NCBI GenBank assembly: GCA_012729785.1 | Contig: JAAYCL010000035.1 | Location: 5,474-69,473, forward strand | Source: Chlamydiota bacterium | GTDB taxonomy: Bacteria > Auribacterota > Tritonobacteria > UBA1439 | Length of the DNA: 64,000 nucleotides | Direction of reading: 5' to 3' | Program-made: the position numbers and the translations under genes | The notes under the pieces: model-generated | What the model saw: the letters and a program-made list of their open reading frames with translations, nothing else | What the model was told of the DNA's origin: nothing | Databases searched by the model: none | Shown: positions 14,676 to 26,329 of the stretch, piece after piece | How positions within the stretch are numbered: position 1 is the first letter of the stretch | How the letters are laid out: each line of letters starts with the position of its first letter

Positions 14676-15377
14676 CTACCGCCTCTCGATCTCGAACGAG
14701 ATCGGCACCCGGATCTCCAGCGGGGAGGGGCCGAGACGGGGAGGGGGCGGCGGGAACGGGGCGGCGCGGCGCACCGTCATCCCCGCCTCGGCGTCGAGGA
14801 TCGGCGAGAGGGAGCTTTGCACGACCCGGACGCCGGAGACGTCCCCGTCGGTGAGTATCCTGAAGGCGACGACGGCCGTTCCGCGCTGCCCCTCGTTGAG
14901 CGCCTCGGAGGGGAATCTCTTCCGCGTGGCGATTTTGCGCCGGACCGCGGCGAGATAGTCGTCGCGCCCCCCGCCCCCCGTCATGGCCGCCCTTCCGTCG
15001 TTGCCGCGCGAGGGGAGGGACGCCAGAAAGGCGGGGGGCGCCGCGCCGCCTTCCGCCTCTTCCCGGGAGGGGGCGGACGCGGCGTCGGGCGCGATCGCCG
15101 CCGCGCGGAGGCGCCGCTCGCGGGGCCTGTCCGTTTCCGGATCGGAGTCCCGCGAAGATTCGGCCTCGCCGACCGGCCGTGGGGAAGCGGGGATAAACGC
15201 CGCGCTGGAGGGGGAGGCCGCGGCGGTCTCGCAGACGGAGCCCACGGTGAAGGCGCACGCCCACTCCTCCTCCGCCGTCCCGGCGGGGAGGCGCGCCGTC
15301 CATCCCGCCGCAAACGCGGCGGCGTGGACGAGCAGGGAGAGCAGGAGCGCCGCCCCAAGCCTCTTGTCGCCGATCAT
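14676..15377 (-). CDS. tonB: TonB-family energy transducer
   Basis: A 233-residue protein. One N-terminal helix ('LGAALLLSLLVHAAAFAAGW', with the SxxxH-like 'SLLVH') anchors it in the inner membrane. A low-complexity periplasmic linker follows, and the TonB C-terminal domain occupies about residues 145-233 ('DDYLAAVRRKIATRKRFPSEA', 'TAVVAFRILTDGDVSGV', 'AAPFPPPP'). The ATG was chosen because GGAGG sits six bases before it. It is transcribed away from the ModE-type gene, with a CCGATATA-N10-TATATCGG palindrome about 90 bases upstream. It should energise the receptor at 16280 with the ExbB/ExbD pair at 23299-24356. Confidence 0.85.
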   Translation of the reverse strand: MIGDKRLGAALLLSLLVHAAAFAAGWTARLPAGTAEEEWACAFTVGSVCETAAASPSSAAFIPASPRPVGEAESSRDSDPETDRPRERRLRAAAIAPDAASAPSREEAEGGAAPPAFLASLPSRGNDGRAAMTGGGGRDDYLAAVRRKIATRKRFPSEALNEGQRGTAVVAFRILTDGDVSGVRVVQSSLSPILDAEAGMTVRRAAPFPPPPPRLGPSPLEIRVPISFEIERR

Positions 15378-15435
15378 GGCCCGCCTCCGCATCGCCGCAT
15401 TCGGCGGGGCCCCTCGCGGAGACCCCGCCCCCCAT

Positions 15436-15450
15436 GGTATGTACCATACC
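15436..15450. promoter_or_regulatory. Short inverted repeat upstream of tonB
   Basis: GGTATG-TAC-CATACC, perfect 6-bp arms, lies between the ModE-type palindrome and the tonB start, where the -10 region of a minus-strand promoter would fall. It may be a second operator or part of the promoter. Confidence 0.35.
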
Positions 15451-15467
15451 GGCGCCGGGCGAGGCAA

Positions 15468-15493
15468 CCGATATAGTTGGCCTTGTATATCGG
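15468..15493. promoter_or_regulatory. ModE-type operator, copy A
   Basis: CCGATATA-GTTGGCCTTG-TATATCGG: perfect 8-bp inverted arms with a 10-base spacer. Arms and spacing are identical to copy B at 16184-16209. The TATA-containing arms resemble known ModE boxes, which also pair TATA-rich half-sites. It lies between the divergent tonB and ModE-type genes, about 90 bases from tonB. Confidence 0.75.
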
Positions 15494-15688
15494 GGGCGGC
15501 GGGCCCGTTTCCCCGCCCCGCGGGGGCGTCCGCCGGACCCTTCCGTGAAACCGGATGGCCGGCGGGGCTGTCGTTTCGCGCCGGCGCGCCGGCGCGGGTG
15601 CGCCCCCGCGGCCCCCGCAGATCCATGGCGGATCCCGGTCATGGCGCCCCGGATCGTGAAAACCGGCGTTTCCCCGGGCGCGTTCCCC

Positions 15689-15718
15689 TTGTGCCCGCGC
15701 AGGGGGAGGGGGTATACT
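15689..15718 (+). promoter_or_regulatory. Promoter of the ModE-type gene
   Basis: TTGTGC (15689-15694), an 18-base spacer and TATACT (15713-15718) end nine bases before the ATG. Transcription would start within a few bases of the start codon, and no ribosome site fits, so the mRNA is probably leaderless. Confidence 0.5.
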
Positions 15719-15726
15719 GGCGGCGT

Positions 15727-16071
15727 ATGAAACTCCGCCTGAAGGTGAGCATCGTCAACGCCCGCGGCGAGGGGTTCATGGGTATCGGGCTCGTCTGGCT
15801 GCTGCGGCGGGTCAAGCGATTCAAGTCGATCCATCGAGCCGCCGCGGACATGGAGCTCTCCTACGTCAAGGCGCTGAAGATTCTCAACCGCCTCGAGAAG
15901 AACCTGGGGCGCAAGGTCGTCATCCGCACGAGGGGCGGCGCGAAACACGGCGGGGCGGAGATCACGCCGTTCGCCGAACGCTACATCGAGGAGTACGACC
16001 GGTTCCTCTCCGCGCTCAACGCACACGCCGAAAAGTCGTTCAGCCGCCGACGCCTCCTCTCCCGTCGCTGA
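15727..16071 (+). CDS. One-domain ModE-type transcription regulator
   Basis: A 114-residue protein made of the ModE/LysR-like winged helix only. 'RLKVSIVNARGEGFMGIGLVWLL' precedes the helix-turn-helix 'SIHRAAADMELSYVKALKILNRLEKNLGRKVVIRTRGGAKHGGAEITPFAERYIEEY', which follows the ModE pattern closely. The C-terminal Mop/TOBE domains that bind molybdate in classical ModE are absent, so metal sensing must occur otherwise or not at all. Two identical palindromes flank it, before tonB and on the TonB-dependent receptor promoter, and they are its probable targets. Confidence 0.85.
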   Translation: MKLRLKVSIVNARGEGFMGIGLVWLLRRVKRFKSIHRAAADMELSYVKALKILNRLEKNLGRKVVIRTRGGAKHGGAEITPFAERYIEEYDRFLSALNAHAEKSFSRRRLLSRR

Positions 16072-16175
16072 TCCATCCCCTCCCGCCCTCCGCGCCGCGC
16101 GCGGCCTGCGCGCAGACGATCCGCACGCCCGCCGCGCCGGAAATCGCGGTGTCCAAAAATGTCCGAAAAATAATG

Positions 16176-16203
16176 TTGACACCCCGATATACATTGGTAT
16201 ATA
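16176..16203 (+). promoter_or_regulatory. Promoter of the TonB-dependent receptor operon
   Basis: TTGACA (16176-16181) is a perfect -35. TATATA at 16198-16203 gives a 16-base spacer (18 with the overlapping TATATA at 16200). Operator copy B covers the spacer and the -10, so bound regulator would block RNA polymerase. Confidence 0.7.
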
Positions 16204-16209
16204 TATCGG
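16184..16209. promoter_or_regulatory. ModE-type operator, copy B
   Basis: CCGATATA-CATTGGTATA-TATATCGG: the same 8-bp arms and 10-base spacer as copy A, while the spacer sequence differs. It lies directly over the receptor promoter, the position expected for repression. Confidence 0.8.
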
Positions 16210-16279
16210 CCTCTAAAAATACCGCGCCGCCCCTGCGCGGGGGGTCGCGGGGGACGCCGGACAGAGGGAGGGGGCGTTG

Positions 16280-18550
16280 ATGCGCACGGGCAGGGTATCC
16301 TTGGCGGTGTCGATGATCATCCTTGGTGTCGCTCTCGCGCCATGCGGCACGGCGTTCTGCCAGGCGGCTTCGGATGCGGCCGACGCGGCGGCCCCGGCGA
16401 CCGGGCCGGGCACCCCCGCTGCGGATGCGGCGGCCGTTCAGGACGCGACCGCGGAGACGGGCTCGGATCAGGCGGCCGCCCCCTCCCCGTCGCCCGCCGC
16501 CACCCCCGCGGGGCCGCTCTCCTTCATCGCCCCCCAGGGCGCCCCCGCCGGTTTCAACGAGAGCGGCTACGTGCCGTACACCCTCGGGGAGATCGTGGTC
16601 GCGGGGCAGACGAAGGCGAACGAGATCGCCCTCTACAACGAGGTCTCCGCGGAGAAGATCGCGGCCACAAACAGCAAGACGGCGGCCGAGGCGCTGCGCT
16701 ACGCCACGGGCGTGCAGGTGCTGCAGGGCGCCAAGAACGAGCCCGACGTGAGCATCCACGGGATGGGGCAGGAGAAGGTCCTGGTGCTGATCGACGGCGT
16801 CCCGTACTACGAGACGAACTACGGGAAGCTCAACCTGAGCCAGATCCCCGCCGACATCATCGCCAAGATCGAGGTGATCAAGGGAGCCCCCTCCGTCATC
16901 TACGGACCGAACGCGGAGGCAGGCGTCATCAACATCGTCACCAAGAACGCCGGGAAGCCGTTCACGCTGGGGAGCAACGTCGAGCTCGGCGAGAAGGACC
17001 ACAACCGCGTCTCGGCGACGACCGGGGGCGAGGAGGGGGTCTTCAAATACTGGTTCAATTACACGCACAACGAGACGAGCGCATGGAGGATGTCCGACAA
17101 CTTCAAGGCGGCCGAGGGGACGATTTTCAGCAAGCCCGGGGGGCCGCGGCGGGCGGTCATCGACGACGGCGGTTTCCGGAGCAACTCCAGCTTCAAGACC
17201 GACAGTTTCTGGGCGAAATTCGGCGTGACGCCTGCCGAGGACTCCGAGTATTTCGTGAACGCCTACTGGATCATGTCCAAGTGGGGCTGGCCGCCGTCGG
17301 TCGCCGATACCACCGTCTTCCCGGACCCGCCCGCCTTCTCGCAGTTCGCCCGGTTCGACAGGTACGACGACTGGGGGGTGGATTTCAACGCGAAGCAGCG
17401 GATCACGGAGAAGTTCCTCCTGCGCAACAACGCCTATTTCCACAACCACCAGGACGCGCTCGTGTCATACACGGACGAGGACTACACGGACAAGCTCGCC
17501 CGCAGCGCCTACAGGGACTACTCGGTGGGGGACAGCGTCATCGCCGACTACGACCTGACGAAGTGGGACACGTTCCGGCTCGCCTTCCACTACAAGATCG
17601 ACTCGCACCGCGAGCGCGACGACTCGTACCTCCCGTTCTCCGAGTCGCTCTCGAACACCGGATCGGTCGCCGCCGAGAACGAGTTCCGTCTCGTCAAGAA
17701 CCTGACCGCCGTCGCCGGCATGGGCTGGGACTGGTTCGACGTCTGGAAGTCGCAGCGGAACACGACGAGCAAGATGGACGGGGCGTTCACCGGGCGGCAG
17801 AACAACGAGCGGCCGAGCCTGAAGGATATGCTGACGCCGATGGGCGGCCTCGAGTACCGCCTTCCGGACACGACCAAGCTCTTCACCTCGCTGGCGAGGA
17901 AGGGGCGCTTCCCCACCCTGCAGCAGCTCTACTCGAGCAAGGGGGGCAACGCCGACCTCGACCCCGAGACCAGTCTCAACTACACCCTCGGCGCCTCCCG
18001 CTCCTTTTTCGACGGGATGGCGTGGGCGGAGGTCGCGTACTTCAATCACTACCTGCGGGACTACATCAGCCGCGACGGACCCGATCCCACGAATATCTAC
18101 CGGAACTACGGGAAGATCATCATGAACGGCATCGAGCTCAACACGGAGCTCAAACCGTTCGAGCGCGCCGCCTTCACCCTCGGCTATACCTACAACCACG
18201 CCCGCGACCGGAGCAGGGGTCACGCCTCCGACTATGTGGTGGACCTCCCCGCGCACAAGATCGACATGGGCCTCCGCTATACGCTCCCGTACACCGAGAC
18301 CAGGATCGATCTCACGCAGCAGATCACCAGCAAGATATTCTCGCAGCTCCCCACCGCGCAGGACCCGGAGCTTGACGAGGAGGTGGCGAAGGGCTACTAT
18401 CTCTGCAACGTCAAGTTCACGCAGCCGCTCACCCGCTATCTCGACGGCTATGTCTCCCTCGAGAACATCTGGGACCGCAACTACGAGACCGTCTACGGCT
18501 TCCCGCAGCGGGGGAGGACGGTCCTCTTCGGGATCGACGCCAAGTACTGA
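16280..18550 (+). CDS. TonB-dependent outer-membrane receptor
   Basis: A 756-residue receptor. A signal peptide (about 1-29) is followed by a ~60-residue Ala/Pro/Thr-rich linker and a probable TonB box 'EIVVAGQ' (104-110). The plug domain runs to about residue 225 ('KTAAEALRYATGVQVLQG', 'VLVLIDGVPYYETNYG', 'KIEVIKGAPSVIYGPNAEAGVINIVTK'). The rest is a 22-strand-type barrel ending 'VLFGIDAKY'. The ATG follows GAGGGAGGGGG; a TTG one codon earlier is less likely. It should bring a substrate too large or scarce for porins into the periplasm. The ModE-type operator suggests a Mo/W-related ligand, by inference. Confidence 0.92.
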   Translation: MRTGRVSLAVSMIILGVALAPCGTAFCQAASDAADAAAPATGPGTPAADAAAVQDATAETGSDQAAAPSPSPAATPAGPLSFIAPQGAPAGFNESGYVPYTLGEIVVAGQTKANEIALYNEVSAEKIAATNSKTAAEALRYATGVQVLQGAKNEPDVSIHGMGQEKVLVLIDGVPYYETNYGKLNLSQIPADIIAKIEVIKGAPSVIYGPNAEAGVINIVTKNAGKPFTLGSNVELGEKDHNRVSATTGGEEGVFKYWFNYTHNETSAWRMSDNFKAAEGTIFSKPGGPRRAVIDDGGFRSNSSFKTDSFWAKFGVTPAEDSEYFVNAYWIMSKWGWPPSVADTTVFPDPPAFSQFARFDRYDDWGVDFNAKQRITEKFLLRNNAYFHNHQDALVSYTDEDYTDKLARSAYRDYSVGDSVIADYDLTKWDTFRLAFHYKIDSHRERDDSYLPFSESLSNTGSVAAENEFRLVKNLTAVAGMGWDWFDVWKSQRNTTSKMDGAFTGRQNNERPSLKDMLTPMGGLEYRLPDTTKLFTSLARKGRFPTLQQLYSSKGGNADLDPETSLNYTLGASRSFFDGMAWAEVAYFNHYLRDYISRDGPDPTNIYRNYGKIIMNGIELNTELKPFERAAFTLGYTYNHARDRSRGHASDYVVDLPAHKIDMGLRYTLPYTETRIDLTQQITSKIFSQLPTAQDPELDEEVAKGYYLCNVKFTQPLTRYLDGYVSLENIWDRNYETVYGFPQRGRTVLFGIDAKY

Positions 18551-18577
18551 GCGGCGAGGACGGCGGCGGGACGGTCT

Positions 18578-19918
18578 ATGCCCCTCACGGTGCGCGATCT
18601 TTGTTTCAGGTACGCCCCGTCCGGGGAGTTCGTCCTCGACCGGCTGAATCTCGACCTCGCCGCGGGGGAGTGCGCGGCGATCACCGGCCCCAACGGGAGC
18701 GGGAAGAGCACGCTCGTCGCGGTCCTCGCCGGGATCATCCCCGCCTTCGTCAAGGGGGAACTCTCCGGATCGATCGAGGGGCCGGGGCCGGACGCGAGAC
18801 CCGCGGTCATCCTCCAGAACCCCGAGGCGCAGATCCTCTGCGACGCGGTGGAGGAGGAGATCTCGTTCTTCATCGCCTATTCCGACGGCCGCGCGAGGCC
18901 GGAGCCGGCGGCCGGGATCGCCGAGGCCGCGGGGCTCGGCGACCTGCGGAGGCGGAAGGTCTATCAGCTCTCCTACGGCGAGAAGCAGCGGCTCGTCGCG
19001 GCGTGCGCCCTCTGGTGCGGCGACGCGCGCCTCATCCTGCTCGACGAGCCGTCGGCGCACCTCGACGACGACGGCGCCGAGCGGCTCTCCCGCCTCCTCG
19101 CGCGGCGCAAGGAGGGCGGCTCGTCCATCCTCCTCATCGGGCACGACTGCGAACGGCTCGGCGGGCTGATCGACCGCTGGTACGTCCTCGAGGGGGGGCG
19201 GCTCGTCGAGACGCGGGAGGGCGGGGGGCGCCGCGTCGCGCGCGGGAAAGGCCTGGTGCGGGGGGGGCGGGCGTTTTCGGAGCTGTGCGCCGTCGAGGAG
19301 ATCACCTGGAGGAGCGAGACCGGCGAGGAGGCGTTCAGGGGCTTCTCCTGCGAGATCCGCAGGGGGGAGCTCTGCGGCCTCACCGGCCCGAACGGCTCCG
19401 GGAAGAGCTCCCTCGCGAGGATCCTCTGCGGCGCGGAGCCGCCCGCGGAGGGGACGGTCCGGTGGGAGGGGAGGGACGCGGACCCCGCCCTCCTGCGGAA
19501 ACGGGTGGCGATGGTGGGCCAGAACCCGTTCCACCAGCTGCTCCACAAGTCGGTCGGGGCGAACGTCGAGTCGGCGCGCCGCCGGGCGCCCCGGGGCGCG
19601 GCCCTCGCGTTCGAGGAGGCGGTCCGTCTGCTCTCCGTGGGGCCGCTGCTCCGGCGGGACGTCGAGACGCTGAGCTTCGGGGAGGCGCAGAGGGTCGCGT
19701 TTCTCTGCGCGCTGCTCCGGGCGCCGGAGCTGTTGATCGTGGACGAGCTCTTCGCCGCGCTCGACGCGGCGGGGATCGACGCGTTCGTCGCGGCGCTCTC
19801 CGCGATGCGGGGGGCGGGGGCGGGCGCCCTCCTCATCTCGCACCTCGAGGCGGATATCGCCGCGATCGCCGACAGGGTCATCGCCATCGGATCGGGGGAC
19901 CATGCACCGCGCGGATAA
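18578..19918 (+). CDS. ECF-type ABC transporter, fused double ATPase (A-A')
   Basis: A 446-residue cytoplasmic protein with two nucleotide-binding domains of the energy-coupling-factor (CbiO-like) class. Domain 1 has Walker A GPNGSGKST (37-45), signature LSYGE (131-135) and Walker B LILLDEPS. Domain 2 has GPNGSGKSS (270-278), LSFGE (365-369) and LLIVDE. Both have the catalytic Glu. The gene starts 27 bases after the receptor and overlaps the S-like gene by 17 bases. It powers import together with the next two membrane proteins. Confidence 0.92.
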   Translation: MPLTVRDLCFRYAPSGEFVLDRLNLDLAAGECAAITGPNGSGKSTLVAVLAGIIPAFVKGELSGSIEGPGPDARPAVILQNPEAQILCDAVEEEISFFIAYSDGRARPEPAAGIAEAAGLGDLRRRKVYQLSYGEKQRLVAACALWCGDARLILLDEPSAHLDDDGAERLSRLLARRKEGGSSILLIGHDCERLGGLIDRWYVLEGGRLVETREGGGRRVARGKGLVRGGRAFSELCAVEEITWRSETGEEAFRGFSCEIRRGELCGLTGPNGSGKSSLARILCGAEPPAEGTVRWEGRDADPALLRKRVAMVGQNPFHQLLHKSVGANVESARRRAPRGAALAFEEAVRLLSVGPLLRRDVETLSFGEAQRVAFLCALLRAPELLIVDELFAALDAAGIDAFVAALSAMRGAGAGALLISHLEADIAAIADRVIAIGSGDHAPRG

Positions 19919-20480
19919 TGTCAGGGTCCTCGTCTACACCACGATCTTCGGCGCGCTCTGGGGGGTCGTCGAGACGCTCCTGGGGACGTATCTCCACCTC
20001 TTCAACGTCCCGTTCAAAGGCGCTATAATGGCGGCGATCGGCGCGATCGTCCTGTGCGCCGAGCGGCTCTATACCCCCTGTTTCGGCGCGACGCTCTCCA
20101 CGGGGTTCATCGCGATGGTGCTGAAGTGCTTCTCCGCCGGGACGGTGAGGATCTGGCCGGTGATCGGGATGGGGGTGGAGACGGTTGTGGCCGAGCTGGT
20201 GTTCACCGCGCTGGGCGCGGGGCGGATCGGCCTCTTCCTCGCCCCGGTCGTCTGCTGCATGGAGGGGGTCCCCCATATGTTCGTCGTCCAGCGCCTGATC
20301 TACGGCGAGGGGGTGTTCGACGCCTACCTGAAGGTCGCCGCGAAGATGCAGGCGGCGTTCAACCTGAGGGAAGACCTCTGGGCGATGGTGCTGCTCGTCT
20401 GGATCGCGGGCCACCTGGCGATCGGGATCGCCGCCGGGGTGTGCGCGATCGGCATCGGGGCCTATCTCCGACGGGAATGA
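19902..20480 (+). CDS. ECF transporter S-component-like membrane protein
   Basis: A 192-residue integral membrane protein with about six helices and no ATP-binding motif. Its N-terminal 'FGALWGVVETLLGTYLHLFNVPFKGAIMAAIGAIVL' region has the small-residue helix-packing pattern of ECF S components. It lies between the double ATPase and the T component and overlaps both, so it is the natural substrate-binding subunit. It does not look like the vitamin, cobalt or nickel S components I know, so the substrate is unassigned. Context suggests a Mo/W-related compound. Confidence 0.72.
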   Translation: MHRADNVRVLVYTTIFGALWGVVETLLGTYLHLFNVPFKGAIMAAIGAIVLCAERLYTPCFGATLSTGFIAMVLKCFSAGTVRIWPVIGMGVETVVAELVFTALGAGRIGLFLAPVVCCMEGVPHMFVVQRLIYGEGVFDAYLKVAAKMQAAFNLREDLWAMVLLVWIAGHLAIGIAAGVCAIGIGAYLRRE

Positions 20481-21088
20481 ACAAGCTCGCGCTCGCATTC
20501 GCGTCTGTCTGTTTCGGGAGCTCGCTTCTCGCGGCCGATGCCCGCGTGCGGCTCGCAACCGGGGGCCTTCTCATTCTCGCCGCGGCGTTCGCGGACCGCC
20601 GCTCCCTCACCGCGTTCGGCTCCTGGAAACTCTGGCTCTTCCCGCTGCTCTTCATCGTCGCGTCGCCCCTCTTCCTCGGCGAGCCCCGAACCTCGCTCCT
20701 GGGCCTCCCGTACTCCCCGGAGCAGCTTGGCCGGGGCGCCCTGTTCCTGTTCCACGCCTACTGCTTCGTGGTCTTCGGGGCCCTCGTCTCGGGGGCGTTC
20801 TCCCTCCGGGAGGTGATGCGCGCCTCGGAACGTCTCGGGATGGGCGGGGTGGGCCTGCGGGTCGCGCTCGGCCCGGCGGCGGCGAAGATCGTGAGCCGCA
20901 TGGTCCGCGAGACGTGGGCCACGTACCGGATGGAGAGGCCGTCGCTCCTCCCCGCGGCGCGCGACTGCCTCATCCTGTTCGGCGCGATCGCGAGGAACAC
21001 CGCCTTGATCGCGGAGCGGATCTCGATCCTCTTCTACCTCAGAAACGTGCGCGTCGGGGCCGCGGGCAGGGGCGGGAGGGGGCGATGA
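20477..21088 (+). CDS. ECF transporter T component (CbiQ-like)
   Basis: A 203-residue membrane protein. Four to five hydrophobic helices fill residues 1-110. A cytoplasmic region follows with 'SLREVMRASERLGMGGVGLRVALGPAAAKIVSRMVRETWATYRMERP', which carries the two short Ala-Arg/Met-Arg-like coupling motifs in a degenerate form. The ATGA overlaps on both sides bind it tightly into the operon. It should couple the double ATPase to the S-like protein. Confidence 0.78.
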   Translation: MNKLALAFASVCFGSSLLAADARVRLATGGLLILAAAFADRRSLTAFGSWKLWLFPLLFIVASPLFLGEPRTSLLGLPYSPEQLGRGALFLFHAYCFVVFGALVSGAFSLREVMRASERLGMGGVGLRVALGPAAAKIVSRMVRETWATYRMERPSLLPAARDCLILFGAIARNTALIAERISILFYLRNVRVGAAGRGGRGR

Positions 21089-21882
21089 GGGATCTCGGGA
21101 TCCTGGAGGAGATCTGGAACGGCCTCGACGAGGGACTGATCCTCGAGGATCTGTCCATATTCCTGCACTGGATCGTCACGAAGTCGCGGCGCTACGCCTT
21201 CTCCCATCTCTTCCAGGGGATGCCGGACCCGGATCCGCGGCCTCACCGGGAGACGTGCCTGAAGGGGCTGCTCGGGAAACCGGTCAGGAAGATCGTCCCG
21301 GAACTGCTCGGCAGCGGCGACACCCTCAGGGAGTCGACCGGGATCTCCTGCCTCAACAGCGCGCTCCCGGTCCCGGAAGACGCCGTCGAGGGAAACGCCG
21401 TCGAGCCGTTCCTGGAGCGCGCGCGGCGGATGAAGACCTGCTTCATCGGCCATTTCCCCGACGCCGACCGGTGGCGGCGCGAGGGGTACCCGGTCGACGT
21501 CATCGAGCTCTTCCCCGAGCCGGGGGATATCCATTGGAACGATTCGCACGCCGCCCTGGCGGCCGCGGAACTCGTCTTCATCACCGGCCTCACCTTGACG
21601 AACGGCACGTTCCCGGAGGTGATCCGGCGCACCCCGAACGCCCGGCACCGGGTGCTGATGGGGCCGACCGTTCCCCTCTCGCCGGTCTTCTTCGCGCACG
21701 GGATCGACCTCGTCGGCTCCTCGGTCATCCTCGACATCCGACGGGCGCTCGACTGGTGCCGGTGGGGCGCGGGGAGCTGCATCTTCGAGCCGGAGGGGGT
21801 CATCCGCCGGGTGAACCTGTTCCGCGATCCCGGGCTCAGGGAGGCCGTGACGGGGGGAGAGGCGTCGAGAAAGGCGGTTTGA
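21085..21882 (+). CDS. DUF364-family protein (putative heavy-metal chelation)
   Basis: A 265-residue protein of the DUF4213/DUF364 type. The N-terminal half contains 'HLFQGMPDPDPRPHRETCLKGLLGK' and 'LRESTGISCLNSALP', and the C-terminal Rossmann-like half 'KTCFIGHFPDADRWRREGYPVDVIEL', 'AAELVFITGLTLTNGTFPEVIRR' and 'RHRVLMGPTVPLSPVFFAHGIDLVGSSVI'. The reported structure of a family member combines enolase-like and Rossmann-like folds and was proposed to chelate a metal. Here it lies directly after an importer and before XdhC, so it may process or bind the imported metal compound in the cytoplasm. Confidence 0.85.
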   Translation: MRDLGILEEIWNGLDEGLILEDLSIFLHWIVTKSRRYAFSHLFQGMPDPDPRPHRETCLKGLLGKPVRKIVPELLGSGDTLRESTGISCLNSALPVPEDAVEGNAVEPFLERARRMKTCFIGHFPDADRWRREGYPVDVIELFPEPGDIHWNDSHAALAAAELVFITGLTLTNGTFPEVIRRTPNARHRVLMGPTVPLSPVFFAHGIDLVGSSVILDIRRALDWCRWGAGSCIFEPEGVIRRVNLFRDPGLREAVTGGEASRKAV

Positions 21883-21884
21883 GT

Positions 21885-22712
21885 ATGTGGCTGAAGAAGG
21901 TCAACGACTGGAAGGCGCAGGGGATCCCCTGCGCCATGCTCACCATCGTCCAGGCGGAGGGGCCGACCCCGCGCGGGGTGGGGTCCAAGATGGCGGTGAA
22001 CCTGCACGGCGACAGCGCGGGGTCGATCGGCGGGGGGCCGGTGGAGCATCTGGGCCTCGAGGAGGCGAAGAAGGCCATCCGGGACAACCGATGCCGGACG
22101 CTGAAATTCTCCCTGCGCGGGGACGAGTGGCAGGTCACGGAGGAGAAGAAGGTGCGGGGGCTGTGCGGTGGCGCCCTCACCGTCTTCATCGAGCCGATCG
22201 TGCCCCGGCACGAGGTCGTCGTCTTCGGGGCGGGCCACATCGGGGAGAAGCTCGCGGCGTTGTGCGCGGTGTTGAATCTCCCCTGCCGCGTCTACGACAA
22301 TCGAAAGGATCGTCTCACCGCCGCGCGCTTTCCGCACGCGCGGAAGCTCATCCACGGCCGTTACGAGGAGCTCGCGAAGAAGATCCCCCTCTCCGCGTCG
22401 AGCTACTGCGTCATCGTGACGCACGGCCACGAGCACGACGAGGAGTGTCTCGAGCTGCTGCTGCAGAACAGGGAGATCCCGTATATCGGCATGATCGGGA
22501 GCGCGGCCAAGGTGAAGATACTTGTCGACCGCATCCGGTCCCGGGGCACGGAGGTCGACGGCCGGCTCTACAGCCCGGTGGGGCTGAAGATCGGCAGCCA
22601 TCTGCCGGAGGAGATCGCCCTCTCCATCATGGCCGAGATCATGCTGCTCTCCGGGGGGGGATCCGGGGAGCATTACCGAATCAGGTGGCACGAGACGGCG
22701 AAGGAACGATGA
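21885..22712 (+). CDS. xdhC: XdhC/CoxI-family protein
   Basis: A 275-residue homologue of XdhC, the chaperone that binds molybdenum cofactor and helps sulfurate and insert it into molybdenum hydroxylases. The N-terminal domain has 'AMLTIVQAEGPTPRGVGSKMAV' and 'GSIGGGPVE'. The Rossmann C-terminal domain has 'EVVVFGAGHIGEKLAALCAVL', 'VIVTHGHEHDEE' and 'YIGMIGSAAKV'. It starts two bases after the DUF364 gene. No molybdenum hydroxylase is in this window, so its client is elsewhere or it serves the imported compound. Confidence 0.9.
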   Translation: MWLKKVNDWKAQGIPCAMLTIVQAEGPTPRGVGSKMAVNLHGDSAGSIGGGPVEHLGLEEAKKAIRDNRCRTLKFSLRGDEWQVTEEKKVRGLCGGALTVFIEPIVPRHEVVVFGAGHIGEKLAALCAVLNLPCRVYDNRKDRLTAARFPHARKLIHGRYEELAKKIPLSASSYCVIVTHGHEHDEECLELLLQNREIPYIGMIGSAAKVKILVDRIRSRGTEVDGRLYSPVGLKIGSHLPEEIALSIMAEIMLLSGGGSGEHYRIRWHETAKER

Positions 22713-23305
22713 GCCCGCGGAAGAAGAACATCCTCGTCACGGGCCCCCCCGGGGCGGGGAAGACGACGCTGGTGGAGGCGGTGGTCCGGTCGCTCGGGGT
22801 GCGGCCCGGCGGGTACGTCACGAAGGCGTTCCCCGCGCGCGGGAGGAAGATCCGGTGTGAGATAGAGGCGTTGACGCCCGGGGTGCGCAGGAGGAGGGGG
22901 GTAATCGCATCCGTCGACGCGCCGGGGGCGTTCCGCGTCTGCGGCATGGGGGTGGACGCGGCGGAGATCGAGGCGGTGGGGGCCGCGGCGCTGGAGAACG
23001 CGGCGGGCTCGTCGCCGCTCATCGTGATGGACGAGATCGGGCAGATGGAGATCGCGAGCCCCCGCTTCCAGGAGGCGGTCATCGCATGCCTGGATTCCGC
23101 GACGCCGGTGCTGGGGGTGATCAAGACGGCGCGCGGTCCGTTCGTGGACCGCATCAAGGCGCGGCCCGACATCGAGCTGGTGGAGCTGACGGAGGAGAAT
23201 CGCGGCGCCGCGCGGGAGCGGGTGCGGGGGCTGCTCGCCGCCCTGGCCGGCCCCGGCGGGAGCGGGTGCGGGGCGCCGCGCGACACGGGGGAGACGGTAT
23301 GTTGA
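22709..23305 (+). CDS. Small P-loop NTPase (THEP1-like)
   Basis: A 198-residue nucleotide-binding protein. The P-loop 'VTGPPGAGKTTLVEAVV' is near the N-terminus, and the Walker B region is 'PLIVMDEIGQMEIASPRFQEAV', a hallmark of the THEP1/NTPase_1 family together with 'VLGVIKTARGPFVDRI'. It overlaps XdhC by four bases and ExbB by seven. THEP1 proteins hydrolyse nucleoside triphosphates with no fixed role. Linkage to XdhC suggests a nucleotide step in cofactor handling, unproven. Confidence 0.85.
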   Translation: MSPRKKNILVTGPPGAGKTTLVEAVVRSLGVRPGGYVTKAFPARGRKIRCEIEALTPGVRRRRGVIASVDAPGAFRVCGMGVDAAEIEAVGAAALENAAGSSPLIVMDEIGQMEIASPRFQEAVIACLDSATPVLGVIKTARGPFVDRIKARPDIELVELTEENRGAARERVRGLLAALAGPGGSGCGAPRDTGETVC

Positions 23306-23925
23306 CCATGCTCTGCAAAGGCGGCCCGCTGATGATCCCGATCATCCTCGGGTCGGTCGTTGGGTGGGCGATCGTCATCGAGCGGCTCTGGGTCTTTCGG
23401 CGCGTGCGCGAGGACGCGTTCGAATTCGTGCAGGAGGTGTTCCGGGATATCAGGAAGGGGAGGACCGACCTTGCGCTCGAGCGCTGCCGCCAACTCGGCG
23501 CGAATCCGCTGGCCGCCGTCTTCAGGATCGGGATCGCGCGGGCGTCGCTCCCCCCCGACCGGCTCGAGAGGGTCATCGAGCAGGCCGGGAACAACCAGGT
23601 TATGCGGTTGGAGCGGCGCCTCGGGGCGCTCGTGGCGATCATCGGCGTCGAGCCGCTCCTCGGGTTTCTGGGGACCATCACGGGACTGATCCGCGCGTTC
23701 ATGTCGTGGGAACGCGCGGGGGCGCAGGTGACGGTCAGCGTGCTCGCCGCGGGGATGTACGAGGCGATGCTCACCACGGCGGCGGGCCTGATCGTGGCGA
23801 TCCCGCTCTACCTCTTCTACGCCTACTTCGTGAGCCGCATCGCGAACCTCTCCAACGCCCTCACCAACCACTGCATCCAGCTGGTCGAGGCGCTCTCGGA
23901 GACGCGGCAGGAGGGGAAACCGTGA
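23299..23925 (+). CDS. exbB: ExbB/TolQ-family proton channel subunit
   Basis: A 208-residue MotA/TolQ/ExbB protein. Three membrane helices lie near residues 8-28, 112-132 ('LVAIIGVEPLLGFLGTITGLIRAF') and 150-178 ('MYEAMLTTAAGLIVAIPLYLFYAYF'), with the pore-lining pattern of the family. The ATG is inside the end of the NTPase gene; a Met three codons later is an alternative. With ExbD it converts proton-motive force into TonB movement for the receptor encoded at the head of the operon. Confidence 0.9.
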   Translation: MLTMLCKGGPLMIPIILGSVVGWAIVIERLWVFRRVREDAFEFVQEVFRDIRKGRTDLALERCRQLGANPLAAVFRIGIARASLPPDRLERVIEQAGNNQVMRLERRLGALVAIIGVEPLLGFLGTITGLIRAFMSWERAGAQVTVSVLAAGMYEAMLTTAAGLIVAIPLYLFYAYFVSRIANLSNALTNHCIQLVEALSETRQEGKP

Positions 23926-24356
23926 AGATCGCCGGGAGGAGACAACGCCTGGTGGCGCTCGAGTCGGTCGCGATGACCGACATCGTGCTCAACCTGTTCA
24001 TATTCTTCTTCATCTCGTTCAGTCTGCTCTACACCCTCAACGCCGACCGGGCGCACGCCATCAGGATCGTGTTGCCCGCCGCGGAGAGTGCCGCCCCGCC
24101 CCCGGAGGCCCCGGAGGCGCGCGTGACGGTGACCCAATCGGGGGAGCTGTACCTGGACGGGGAGCGGATCGGGGAGGAGGCGCTGGGCGGCGAGATCGCC
24201 CTGAGGAAGTCGGCGGATCCCGATCTGCGGATCTCCCTCCGCGCCGACAGGCAGGCGCCGTTTCAGGAGGCGGTCCGCGTCCTGTCGATCGTCTCGGCGT
24301 GCCGGGTGCGCGCGCTCGATATCGCCGTCGTGAAGGAAGGGGACGCCGACCGCTGA
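23922..24356 (+). CDS. exbD: ExbD/TolR-family proton channel subunit
   Basis: A 144-residue protein with one N-terminal membrane helix containing the essential Asp ('ESVAMTDIVLNLFIFFFISF') and a periplasmic domain ending 'LSIVSACRVRALDIAVVKEG'. The GTG start overlaps exbB (GTGA). This is the last gene of the receptor-ECF operon and converges on a minus-strand thioredoxin gene 17 bases away. Confidence 0.9.
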   Translation: MKIAGRRQRLVALESVAMTDIVLNLFIFFFISFSLLYTLNADRAHAIRIVLPAAESAAPPPEAPEARVTVTQSGELYLDGERIGEEALGGEIALRKSADPDLRISLRADRQAPFQEAVRVLSIVSACRVRALDIAVVKEGDADR

Positions 24357-24373: not shown

Positions 24374-24688
24374 TCAGAGCCCCTCGAGGTCCTTCTCCCC
24401 GAGCCCCTGCCCGGGTCTTCCGTCCCGGCGCGCCCTGACCTCCCTCCCCTCGAAGACGATCAGCGTCGGCACCACCTCGACGCCGTACGTTTCCCAGAGC
24501 GGGTTCTCGAGATCGTCGAGAACCACCGTGAGGCAGCCGCGCCCCCCCGCCTTGGCCGCGGCGAACGCATCGAAACGGGGGCGGAACGCGCGGCAGTACG
24601 GGCAGGCGCTCATCACGAAGAGCACGACGGTTTTCCCCCCCGCCGCGAGGTGGGGGGCCAGCGACGACGGATTCAGGAGCGTCTGCAT
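24374..24688 (-). CDS. Thioredoxin-like protein (CPYC) downstream of cstA
   Basis: A 104-residue single-domain thioredoxin-fold protein. The active site is CPYC in 'VVLFVMSACPYCRAFRPRF', and the cis-proline lies in 'GVEVVPTLIVFEG'. No signal peptide is seen. It begins 21 bases after the cstA stop, so the two are probably co-transcribed, although no functional link between CstA and thioredoxins is established. Confidence 0.83.
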   Translation of the reverse strand: MQTLLNPSSLAPHLAAGGKTVVLFVMSACPYCRAFRPRFDAFAAAKAGGRGCLTVVLDDLENPLWETYGVEVVPTLIVFEGREVRARRDGRPGQGLGEKDLEGL

Positions 24689-24709
24689 GGTTCGATCGCG
24701 GCGCCGGCG

Positions 24710-26329
24710 TCAGGCGCGCAGGGCCCTCGCGGTCTCGCGGACCAGCAGGAGCGCCATCAGGAGCAAAACCGCGGCGATGAGCCCGATCACGGACAGGCGG
24801 TACCTGCCGATGAGAAGGACGAGCGCCCAGACGGTCATGACGATCATGAACGCCATCGGAACGAGCACGATGCCGGTCCGCTTTCCTCCTTTCTTCAGCC
24901 AGAGGGTGATGACGAGGAGCGTGAGCGCCGCGAGGAGCTGGTTGGAGGCGCCGAAGGCGGGCCAGATGACCTTCCACGCCGGGACGGGGTTCCCCTGCGC
25001 GTCGCGGAGCGTGATGAGGACGAAGATCGCGGGAAGGACGAGCGTGGCGAGGGTGGACCAGTAGCGCGTCTTCACGCCGGCGAGGCCGAAGAACTCCTCG
25101 AAGATGTACCGGCCGAGGCGCGTCGCGGTGTCGAGCGTGGTGAGGATGAAGGTTGAGAGGGCGAGGAGTCCGAACGAGTAGCCGATCCTCTGCGGGACGC
25201 GGAGGAGCGCGAGGAAGCGGCTGATGCCGGTCGCGTAGATCTCGAGCGGCGGCTTCCCCGCGAGGGCGTCGTGTCGCGAGATCATGATGACCGTGGCGAG
25301 GGCGATGACGGCGATGACCCCCTCGACGAGCATCGCCCCGTAGCCGACGAGCCGCGCGTCCGATTCGCGGTCGAGCTGCTTCGACGACGTCCCCGAGGCG
25401 ACGATGGAGTGGAACCCCGAGCAGGCGCCGCAGGCGACCGTGATGAAGAGGATCGGGAAGAGCGACCCGAGCTCCGGCGCGGTCCAGTCGACGAAGGCGG
25501 GGAAGCTCGCGGGGAAGGCGCCGAAAGAGATGCCGACGAGGCCGCCCAAAACGGAGGCGTAGAGCAGGAACGAGGAGAGGTAGTCGCGGGGCTGGAGGAG
25601 GACCCAGACGGGGGTCGTGGAGGCGACGAAGCAATAGACGATGAGGAGGACGGCCCAGACCTTGACCGGGTCGCCGCCGGTGAGGGAGCGGACCGACTCC
25701 GCCTGGAGCGGGATGCGCTGGCCGACCCAGACCGCGAGGAAGACGAGCGGCACGAAGACGAGCGATGCGGCGAGCACGGTGAGCCGCAGCCGATAAACGC
25801 AGAGGCCGAAGCCGATCGCGAGGGCGATGAAGATGATCGAGGAGACGGCGACCCCGCCGTCCATCGCGAAGGTGGCCGAGGTGAGATCGGTGAAGACGAT
25901 CAACACATAGACCAGCGTCAGCCAGATGAAGGAGAGGAAGAGCTTGTAGGCGAGGGGGGACATATATTCCCTCGCGATCTCCGCGATCGAGCGCGCCCGG
26001 TGGCGGATGGAGACGAAGAGCGTCGCGAAGTCGTGCACCCCGCCGATGAGGATCGAGCCCGCCACGATCCAGACGAGGGCCGGGAGCCAGCCGAAGGCGG
26101 TCGCCGCGATGATCGGGCCCACGATCGGCCCCGCCCCGGCGATCGACGAGAAGTGGTGGCCGAGGAGGACCGCCCGGTTGGCGGGCACCCGGTCCACCCC
26201 GTCGTAGTCGGTGTGCGCCGGGGTCGGGCGCGTGTTGTCGATCCCGAAGAAGCGGGCGAGGAAGCGGCCGTAGACAAGGTACGCCGCCGCGAAGGCGACG
26301 ACCGCGGAGAGGAAGACGACTGTCAGCAT
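24710..26329 (-). CDS. cstA: Carbon starvation protein CstA-family transporter
   Basis: A 539-residue integral membrane protein with about 14-16 helices. Family motifs include 'AHTDYDGVDRVPANRAVLLGHHFSSIAGAGPIVGP', 'ACGACSGFHSIVASGTSSKQL', 'TLDTATRLGRYIFEE' and 'IWPAFGASNQLLAALTLL'. CstA proteins import peptides or pyruvate, and the short form is common in bacteria. A TATACT hexamer on the minus strand (26357-26352) is the likely -10. The upstream 224 bases to rmuC hold no gene. Confidence 0.95.
   Translation of the reverse strand: MLTVVFLSAVVAFAAAYLVYGRFLARFFGIDNTRPTPAHTDYDGVDRVPANRAVLLGHHFSSIAGAGPIVGPIIAATAFGWLPALVWIVAGSILIGGVHDFATLFVSIRHRARSIAEIAREYMSPLAYKLFLSFIWLTLVYVLIVFTDLTSATFAMDGGVAVSSIIFIALAIGFGLCVYRLRLTVLAASLVFVPLVFLAVWVGQRIPLQAESVRSLTGGDPVKVWAVLLIVYCFVASTTPVWVLLQPRDYLSSFLLYASVLGGLVGISFGAFPASFPAFVDWTAPELGSLFPILFITVACGACSGFHSIVASGTSSKQLDRESDARLVGYGAMLVEGVIAVIALATVIMISRHDALAGKPPLEIYATGISRFLALLRVPQRIGYSFGLLALSTFILTTLDTATRLGRYIFEEFFGLAGVKTRYWSTLATLVLPAIFVLITLRDAQGNPVPAWKVIWPAFGASNQLLAALTLLVITLWLKKGGKRTGIVLVPMAFMIVMTVWALVLLIGRYRLSVIGLIAAVLLLMALLLVRETARALRA

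Follow-up and report, generated by a model that had tools for sequence, protein, structure and literature searches.

An eleven-gene TonB and ECF transport locus

The locus examined here lies at positions 14676-24356 of a 64,000-nucleotide stretch (here called the window) of contig JAAYCL010000035.1, from a metagenome-assembled genome (MAG) filed as Chlamydiota bacterium (GCA_012729785.1; GTDB Auribacterota), and its possible role in the import of molybdenum cofactor (Moco) is the subject of this report. It comprises a divergent tonB gene on the minus strand, a gene for a ModE-type regulator, and a nine-gene operon on one strand that encodes, in order, a TonB-dependent receptor, a fused double energy-coupling factor (ECF) ATPase (EcfA-A'), an S protein, a T protein, a DUF4213/DUF364 protein, an XdhC-family protein, a THEP1-like nucleoside triphosphatase, ExbB, and ExbD. 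The junctions from the receptor to ExbD measure +27, −17, −4, −4, +2, −4, −7, and −4 bp. An initial annotation had listed these genes and described the last nine as running in one direction and mostly overlapping; list, coordinates, and arrangement were all confirmed. The entire 11-gene order is kept in a member of another genus of the family (genome G022, L008:6332-16787), with one added 164-amino-acid open reading frame (ORF) between XdhC and THEP1, and the locus is present in pieces, on two contigs, in a congener of the host (G024). The grouping is therefore not due to chance.

The receptor (16280..18550, plus strand) matched PF07715 and PF00593. Its best NCBIfam model was BtuB (TIGR01779), at 122 bits against a cutoff of 599.7, and its best PDB match was also BtuB (E of 4.6e-18). 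The EcfA-A' protein (18578..19918, plus strand) contains two ABC_tran stretches and matched ECF_ATPase models at 172 bits; its translation carries the GPNGSGKS and LSxGExQR motifs twice each, giving the two ATPase domains of an ECF transporter. Neither the S protein (19902..20480, plus strand) nor the T protein (20477..21088, plus strand) matched Pfam or NCBIfam at an E of 0.01, S fell in no named S-component family, and the S alignment, searched against PDB sequences, returned chance matches only.

The predicted structures were more informative. The AlphaFold model of S (predicted local distance difference test [pLDDT] score, 84.8) had the ECF S-component YkoE (5edl) as its best PDB match, with a Foldseek probability of 1.00; VIA-align superposed the two with a Z of 14.3 and a root mean square deviation of 3.0 over 161 residues, compared with Z values of 8.6 to 10.3 for the next S-components (TmRibU being second, at 10.3). 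Assignment of S as an ECF S-component of a new sequence family is sound at the level of the predicted fold. The T model is of low confidence (pLDDT, 67.5) and gave no Pfam CbiQ match, with EcfT chains from ECF transporters for folate and pantothenate as its top PDB matches; by its modeled fold, T is likely a divergent ECF T-component. These folds gave backing to the S-like and T-like labels of the initial annotation, and the outer-membrane-to-cytoplasm architecture that it proposed was supported as well. No homologue clearly assigned to another kind of uptake emerged, the receptor being nearest BtuB at 122 versus 600 bits and S having no named family.

The module resembles group I ECF transporters, which have a dedicated A-A'-T-S operon (YkoEDC for a thiamine precursor; CbiMNQO), in having a pair of ABC ATPase domains, an S-component, and a probable T-component, with an S fold closest to YkoE. 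It differs from them in its new S and T sequence families and in an operon that adds a receptor, ExbBD, XdhC, DUF364, and THEP1, with a divergent tonB and ModE-type control. As in BtuB-type uptake with a dedicated TonB-ExbBD, receptor and energizing genes are encoded together; however, the receptor scores far under the BtuB cutoff, and the inner-membrane step would be carried out by an ECF transporter without a binding protein rather than by BtuFCD.

ModE-type regulator and operators

The regulator (15727..16071, plus strand) is a 114-residue protein that matched TIGR00637 at 51 bits (cutoff, 98.5) and PRK10676 at 33 bits. It consists of the winged helix-turn-helix part only; Pfam and NCBIfam searches found no C-terminal molybdate-binding TOBE/Mop domain. 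The ModE-type label given earlier would thus apply to a DNA-binding domain, with a score below the cutoff, and not to a molybdate-binding part. Relatives at 60 to 61% identity are encoded near modA or modABC in two other genomes, G009 (L019) and G023 (L088).

Two operators that the initial annotation had overlooked flank the regulator gene. Operator 1 (15469..15492, CGATATAGTTGGCCTTGTATATCG) and operator 2 (16185-16208, CGATATACATTGGTATATATATCG) are perfect 24-bp palindromes of the form CGATATA-N10-TATATCG, and this exact pattern has two copies in the 2,585,277-base assembly, both of them here, against approximately 0.0003 expected from base composition. Operator 2 covers the spacer and −10 element of a TTGACA promoter-like sequence (16176..16208 with the operator, plus strand), as it also does in the congener (L012) and in G022 (L008). 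Both positions are conserved, exactly in the congener and with 1 and 2 mismatches in G022 (operator 1, L012:369-392 and L008:7117-7140). The same box layout was found at the modABC promoter of G022 (L066:3886-3909); G023 has a ModE-type box immediately 5' of modA, and in G020 and G021 such a box precedes a DUF2490 gene that heads modABC or is close to it. The same pattern with one mismatch allowed recovered the E. coli modA operator.

Because these boxes are shared with modABC promoters and because relatives of the regulator are encoded near modA or modABC, the locus is, as judged from its sequence, part of the ModE-type regulon of this lineage, and the molybdenum-type regulatory link proposed initially was borne out. 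Operator type and promoter placement are those of modABC in relatives and in E. coli; in contrast to the ModE/ModABC arrangement, the host lacks ModABC, its regulator is a helix-turn-helix domain only, and the targets are TonB and ECF genes. A further perfect palindrome (GGTATGTACCATACC, 15436..15450) is located in the tonB leader between tonB and its ModE box; it is the sole match in the window and is kept in the congener (L012). The DUF2490 genes behind ModE boxes in G020 and G021 (L086:982-1743 and L087:10232-11017) are of outer-membrane type, and their product may be a molybdate porin; the DUF2490 gene of the host, like that of G022, leads pst genes.

The operators bear on whether the substrate is another scarce cofactor or metal (a cobamide, a nickel chelate, or another pterin) and the ModE-type regulator has simply been reused. 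The nearness of the receptor to BtuB, the lack of a molybdate-binding domain in the regulator, and the NikR-CbiM-PDGLE-CbiQ-CbiO nickel/cobalt ECF system that immediately precedes the G022 locus (L008:1892-6204) would all fit such a substrate. The BtuB match is generic, however, the operator is a modABC-type box, and XdhC has no known role with a cobamide, a nickel chelate, or another pterin. Nickel was set aside as a candidate substrate since NikR and a CbiM-type protein are encoded separately, at other places in the host genome. Overall, we regard a substrate of this kind as rather doubtful.

The remaining genes of the locus were identified as follows. The tonB product (14676..15377, minus strand) is a TonB C-terminal domain protein (PF03544, 60 bits; TIGR01352, 64 bits) with an orthologue of 41% identity in G022 (L008:6332-7030). 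The DUF4213/DUF364 protein (21085..21882, plus strand) matched PF04016 at 113.6 bits and PDB 3l5o with an E of 5e-13, and the THEP1-like nucleoside triphosphatase (22709..23305, plus strand) matched PF03266 at 126.5 bits and PDB entries 2i3b and 1ye8. The ExbB proton channel (23299..23925, plus strand) matched PF01618 at 93 bits; ExbD (23922..24356, plus strand) matched TIGR02804 at 33 bits, under the cutoff of that model, and has an orthologue at L008:16350-16775. An Rfam search of the window gave no match, nor did a plasmid search.

On the opposite strand 3' of ExbD (window 24374-26329) are thioredoxin-like and CstA-like carbon starvation genes, identified by eye, which hold the same place in the congener (L064:5569-7591). 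DNA identity to the congener (L012) is 94 to 99% across the regulator and receptor (window 15500-18480) and drops to 67 to 86% from the 3' end of the receptor gene onward, across the ECF genes; this step would reflect either recent exchange of a tract holding the receptor-regulator cassette or chimerism of the MAG contig. A second DUF364 group in the phylum, 26 to 30% identical (L063:8577-9308, L059, L060, and L062), has NifX-like, ATPase, ARMT1-like (DUF89), and MBL genes nearby; in an Elusimicrobia genome, G045, a DUF364 gene (L104) is near a molybdenum hydroxylase gene.

Molybdenum hydroxylases and loss of cofactor genes

The molybdenum status of the host was examined by profile searches of 44 genomes of the phylum for AOR, ModA, and MoaC and of nine genomes for nitrogenase and MoeA. 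The host MAG is 96.6% complete, and approximately 79% of it was sampled with E. coli queries. The host and its congener had no MoaC, AOR, or MoeA and no ModA (TIGR01256; TupA and WtpA were not searched specifically), while the other four family members all had AOR, ModA, MoaC, and MoeA. ModB query matches in the host were to a PstC-type permease, and candidate MoaA proteins reached 55 to 83 bits (cutoff, 284), other radical-SAM families matching them better. The sampled part also contained rplC, for ribosomal protein L3 (L142:13557-14225), without the other tested genes of the S10, spc, and alpha operons.

Several readings were rejected. Uptake of a molybdenum or tungsten oxyanion was set aside given the lack of ModA, MoaC, and MoeA in the host. 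Nitrogenase (PF00148) was absent from all nine genomes searched, host and congener included, and the tungsten enzyme AOR, absent from both, is present in G022. The sole PF00384 match (47.7 bits), considered as a DMSO-reductase-type enzyme, is a 1,093-residue NuoG-like protein that by eye ends before the usual C-terminal domain.

The idea that the organism does not use molybdenum at all was overturned by three MoCoBD_2 (PF20256) proteins of 218 to 252 bits, which are full length and matched xanthine dehydrogenase (XDH) subunits at 658, 647, and 470 bits. All three carry a C-terminal FGAR/KS(V/I)AE or FGARGIGE motif, which we take to be the active-site Glu motif of molybdenum hydroxylases. Two of the three have an orthologue in the congener with a dN/dS of 0.14 to 0.19 and hence are maintained by purifying selection. 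Alongside the hydroxylases, the host retains FeS and FAD subunits as well as a MocA-like gene; the MocA-like nucleotidyltransferase, encoded in one of the operons (TIGR03310, 149 bits; MobA, 46 bits), would act on finished Mo-molybdopterin. With three PF20256 genes and neither MoaC nor MoeA, the host combines Moco enzymes with an incomplete synthesis pathway, the combination termed orphan molybdoprotein.

For such proteins, Peng et al. raised the ideas of molybdenum-free enzymes and of new biosynthetic parts, as far as the portion of that study available goes (PMC6147048). Applied to the host, either idea would make the locus an unrelated uptake system. The full-length subunits, the intact active-site motifs, the adjacent MocA-like gene, and the retention of XdhC in an operon with a ModE box all argue against this, and we consider it very unlikely.

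Comparison with G022 revealed where genes had been lost. In G022 and G023, modABC lies tail-to-tail with pstB; in the host, DUF2490-pstC-pstA-pstB keeps that gene order, lies midway along a 155-kb contig, and is followed by an unrelated gene, with no mod remnant. The G022 hydroxylase operon reads upp-mocA-xdhC-(minus-strand ORF)-moaD-xdh-FeS-FAD, whereas that of the host reads upp-mocA-xdh-FeS-FAD, without moaD and with a relic of xdhC between mocA and xdh (41 residues, 56% identical, and then a stop; L098:10297-10419). From these contig sequences, the loss of modABC, moaD, and the operon xdhC is apparent inside contigs and not only at assembly gaps.

The XdhC-family protein of the transport locus (21885..22712, plus strand) is the only intact XdhC found in the approximately 79% of the host genome sampled. 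It has both domains of the family (PF02625, XdhC_CoxI, 65 bits; PF13478, XdhC_C, 121 bits), and it matched XdhC_rel_AOR at 200 bits and PDB 2we7 with an E of 1.8e-24; it scored 126 bits against the XDH equivalog TIGR02964, below the cutoff of 161.6. It therefore shares the XdhC_CoxI and XdhC Rossmann domains of known XdhC Moco chaperones, intact, but is encoded in a transport operon, the copy in the host hydroxylase operon being the relic.

The initial annotation had favored uptake of a complexed molybdenum or tungsten species. In that case, a molybdophore or metal complex would be imported, and DUF364 and XdhC would free the metal for Moco synthesis. The ModE-type operators and regulator, the presence of XdhC, the annotation of DUF364 as putatively metal chelating, and the occurrence of the locus alongside modABC and Moco synthesis in G022 are in keeping with this. 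However, since MoaC and MoeA are absent from the host and congener and since moaD and modABC are gone from their syntenic sites in the host, an imported metal could not be converted to Moco by any known route. Because the tested molybdopterin-synthesis genes and MoeA are absent, metal alone could not serve the host hydroxylases, and the earlier proposal was not supported as the leading interpretation; we judge import of a chelate to be unlikely, if a reading to be taken seriously.

Proposed import of preformed molybdenum cofactor

A search of 84,980 species genomes, based on the S alignment and two peptide patterns, recovered the congener and two Elusimicrobia loci. In one of the latter (L013:8237-12307), the THEP1-like gene (NTPase_1) lies 5' of the ECF genes, and the order is THEP1-like, EcfA-A', S, T, and AnmK; the other (L014:2-3012) starts inside the ATPase gene and continues with S, T, and AnmK. 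In profile searches, both Elusimicrobia carriers lacked MoeA and had 1 and 4 molybdenum hydroxylases. Thus, four of the five S-component carriers have molybdenum hydroxylases without a full Moco pathway, which fits the orphan molybdoprotein pattern as described in the available portion of that study (PMC6147048).

In each of the Elusimicrobia loci, AnmK lies directly 3' of the T gene, a hint that a cell-wall sugar, be it anhydro-N-acetylmuramic acid or a muropeptide, is imported; the ECF modules there may have another substrate. For the host this is highly improbable: no AnmK was found in the approximately 79% of the genome sampled, no murein-related gene is present in the window locus, and the AnmK-SQS-OmpA synteny may belong to a wider conserved block.

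We infer, at slightly better than even confidence, that the locus encodes an importer of preformed Moco, most likely Mo-molybdopterin, in a bacterium apparently incapable of Moco synthesis. Moco, and not an oxyanion or a metal chelate, is the best reading of the imported species, and the second suggestion of the initial annotation, a pterin cofactor instead of the free oxyanion, was thereby supported. The loss of MoeA together with the retention of a MocA-like gene points to Mo-molybdopterin as opposed to cyclic pyranopterin monophosphate, metal-free molybdopterin, or a dinucleotide. YkoE and RibU S-components bind heteroaromatic vitamins, which, given the predicted fold of S, we count in favor of Moco.

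Several observations weigh against this interpretation. Free Moco is unstable in air. The S-component carriers number only five (the host, G024, G022, and the two Elusimicrobia), all of them MAGs. The Elusimicrobia loci have AnmK adjoining and are without TonB, XdhC, DUF364, and ModE, and the status of G045, where a MoaD/ThiS-like gene neighbors a hydroxylase gene, is less clear. G022 has the locus together with the full Moco pathway and modABC; conversely, G011 and G025, poor genomes of the same phylum, have XDH without MoaC and no S-component. The absence of moaC and moeA is drawn from two related genomes, and the rplQ-moaC junction seen in G022 fell outside the sampled part of the host. E. 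coli MoaA-E, MoeA, and ModAB queries found no orthologue in that sampled part, with no profile search for MoaE or MoaA. Within the phylum, two of the three S-component carriers are among the 4 of 18 genomes that are XDH positive and MoaC negative (p of approximately 0.11, by hand and with kinship ignored). As this association is not significant, it is the losses at syntenic sites and the carriers in a second phylum that make the case.

The following working model of Moco import is proposed. The family would have gained the importer, and G022 would have kept both routes; in the host genus, modABC, AOR, and Moco synthesis would later have been lost, leaving it reliant on import. Moco, either free or set loose from protein, would cross the outer membrane by way of the receptor, which would be powered by its own TonB-ExbB-ExbD; it would then be bound by the S-component and driven through the inner membrane by the EcfA-A'-T module. 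Inside, the XdhC of the locus would take over Moco and, with the MocA-like cytidylyltransferase, supply the three XDH-type enzymes. DUF364 and THEP1 might process or hold the cofactor, a guess by association, and the ModE-type regulator would act at the two operators, one of them over the receptor promoter.

To our knowledge, import of ready-made Moco is not known in bacteria. A literature search, incomplete in its coverage, found no bacterial Moco importer. Under the prevailing view, a cell depends on its own de novo synthesis for Moco; dietary uptake in C. elegans is an apparent exception in which ready-made Moco likewise comes from outside, but in an animal, from a protein-bound source, and with the membrane transporter unknown (PMC9793310). 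Peng et al. (2018) counted 305 bacteria and 5 archaea that have Moco-dependent enzymes but an incomplete pathway, most of them without known molybdenum transporters, and called for tests; in the available portion of the study, import does not figure among the proposals (PMC6147048).

If the interpretation proposed here is correct, intact Moco would be transported in bacteria by a TonB receptor and an ECF importer under ModE-type control, and a lineage could drop Moco synthesis yet keep its molybdoenzymes, becoming a cofactor auxotroph. Import would then offer a third explanation for the approximately 300 orphan molybdoprotein prokaryotes, for which the locus provides a concrete gene set for testing, and Moco would be, like vitamin B12, a shared commodity in anaerobic communities.

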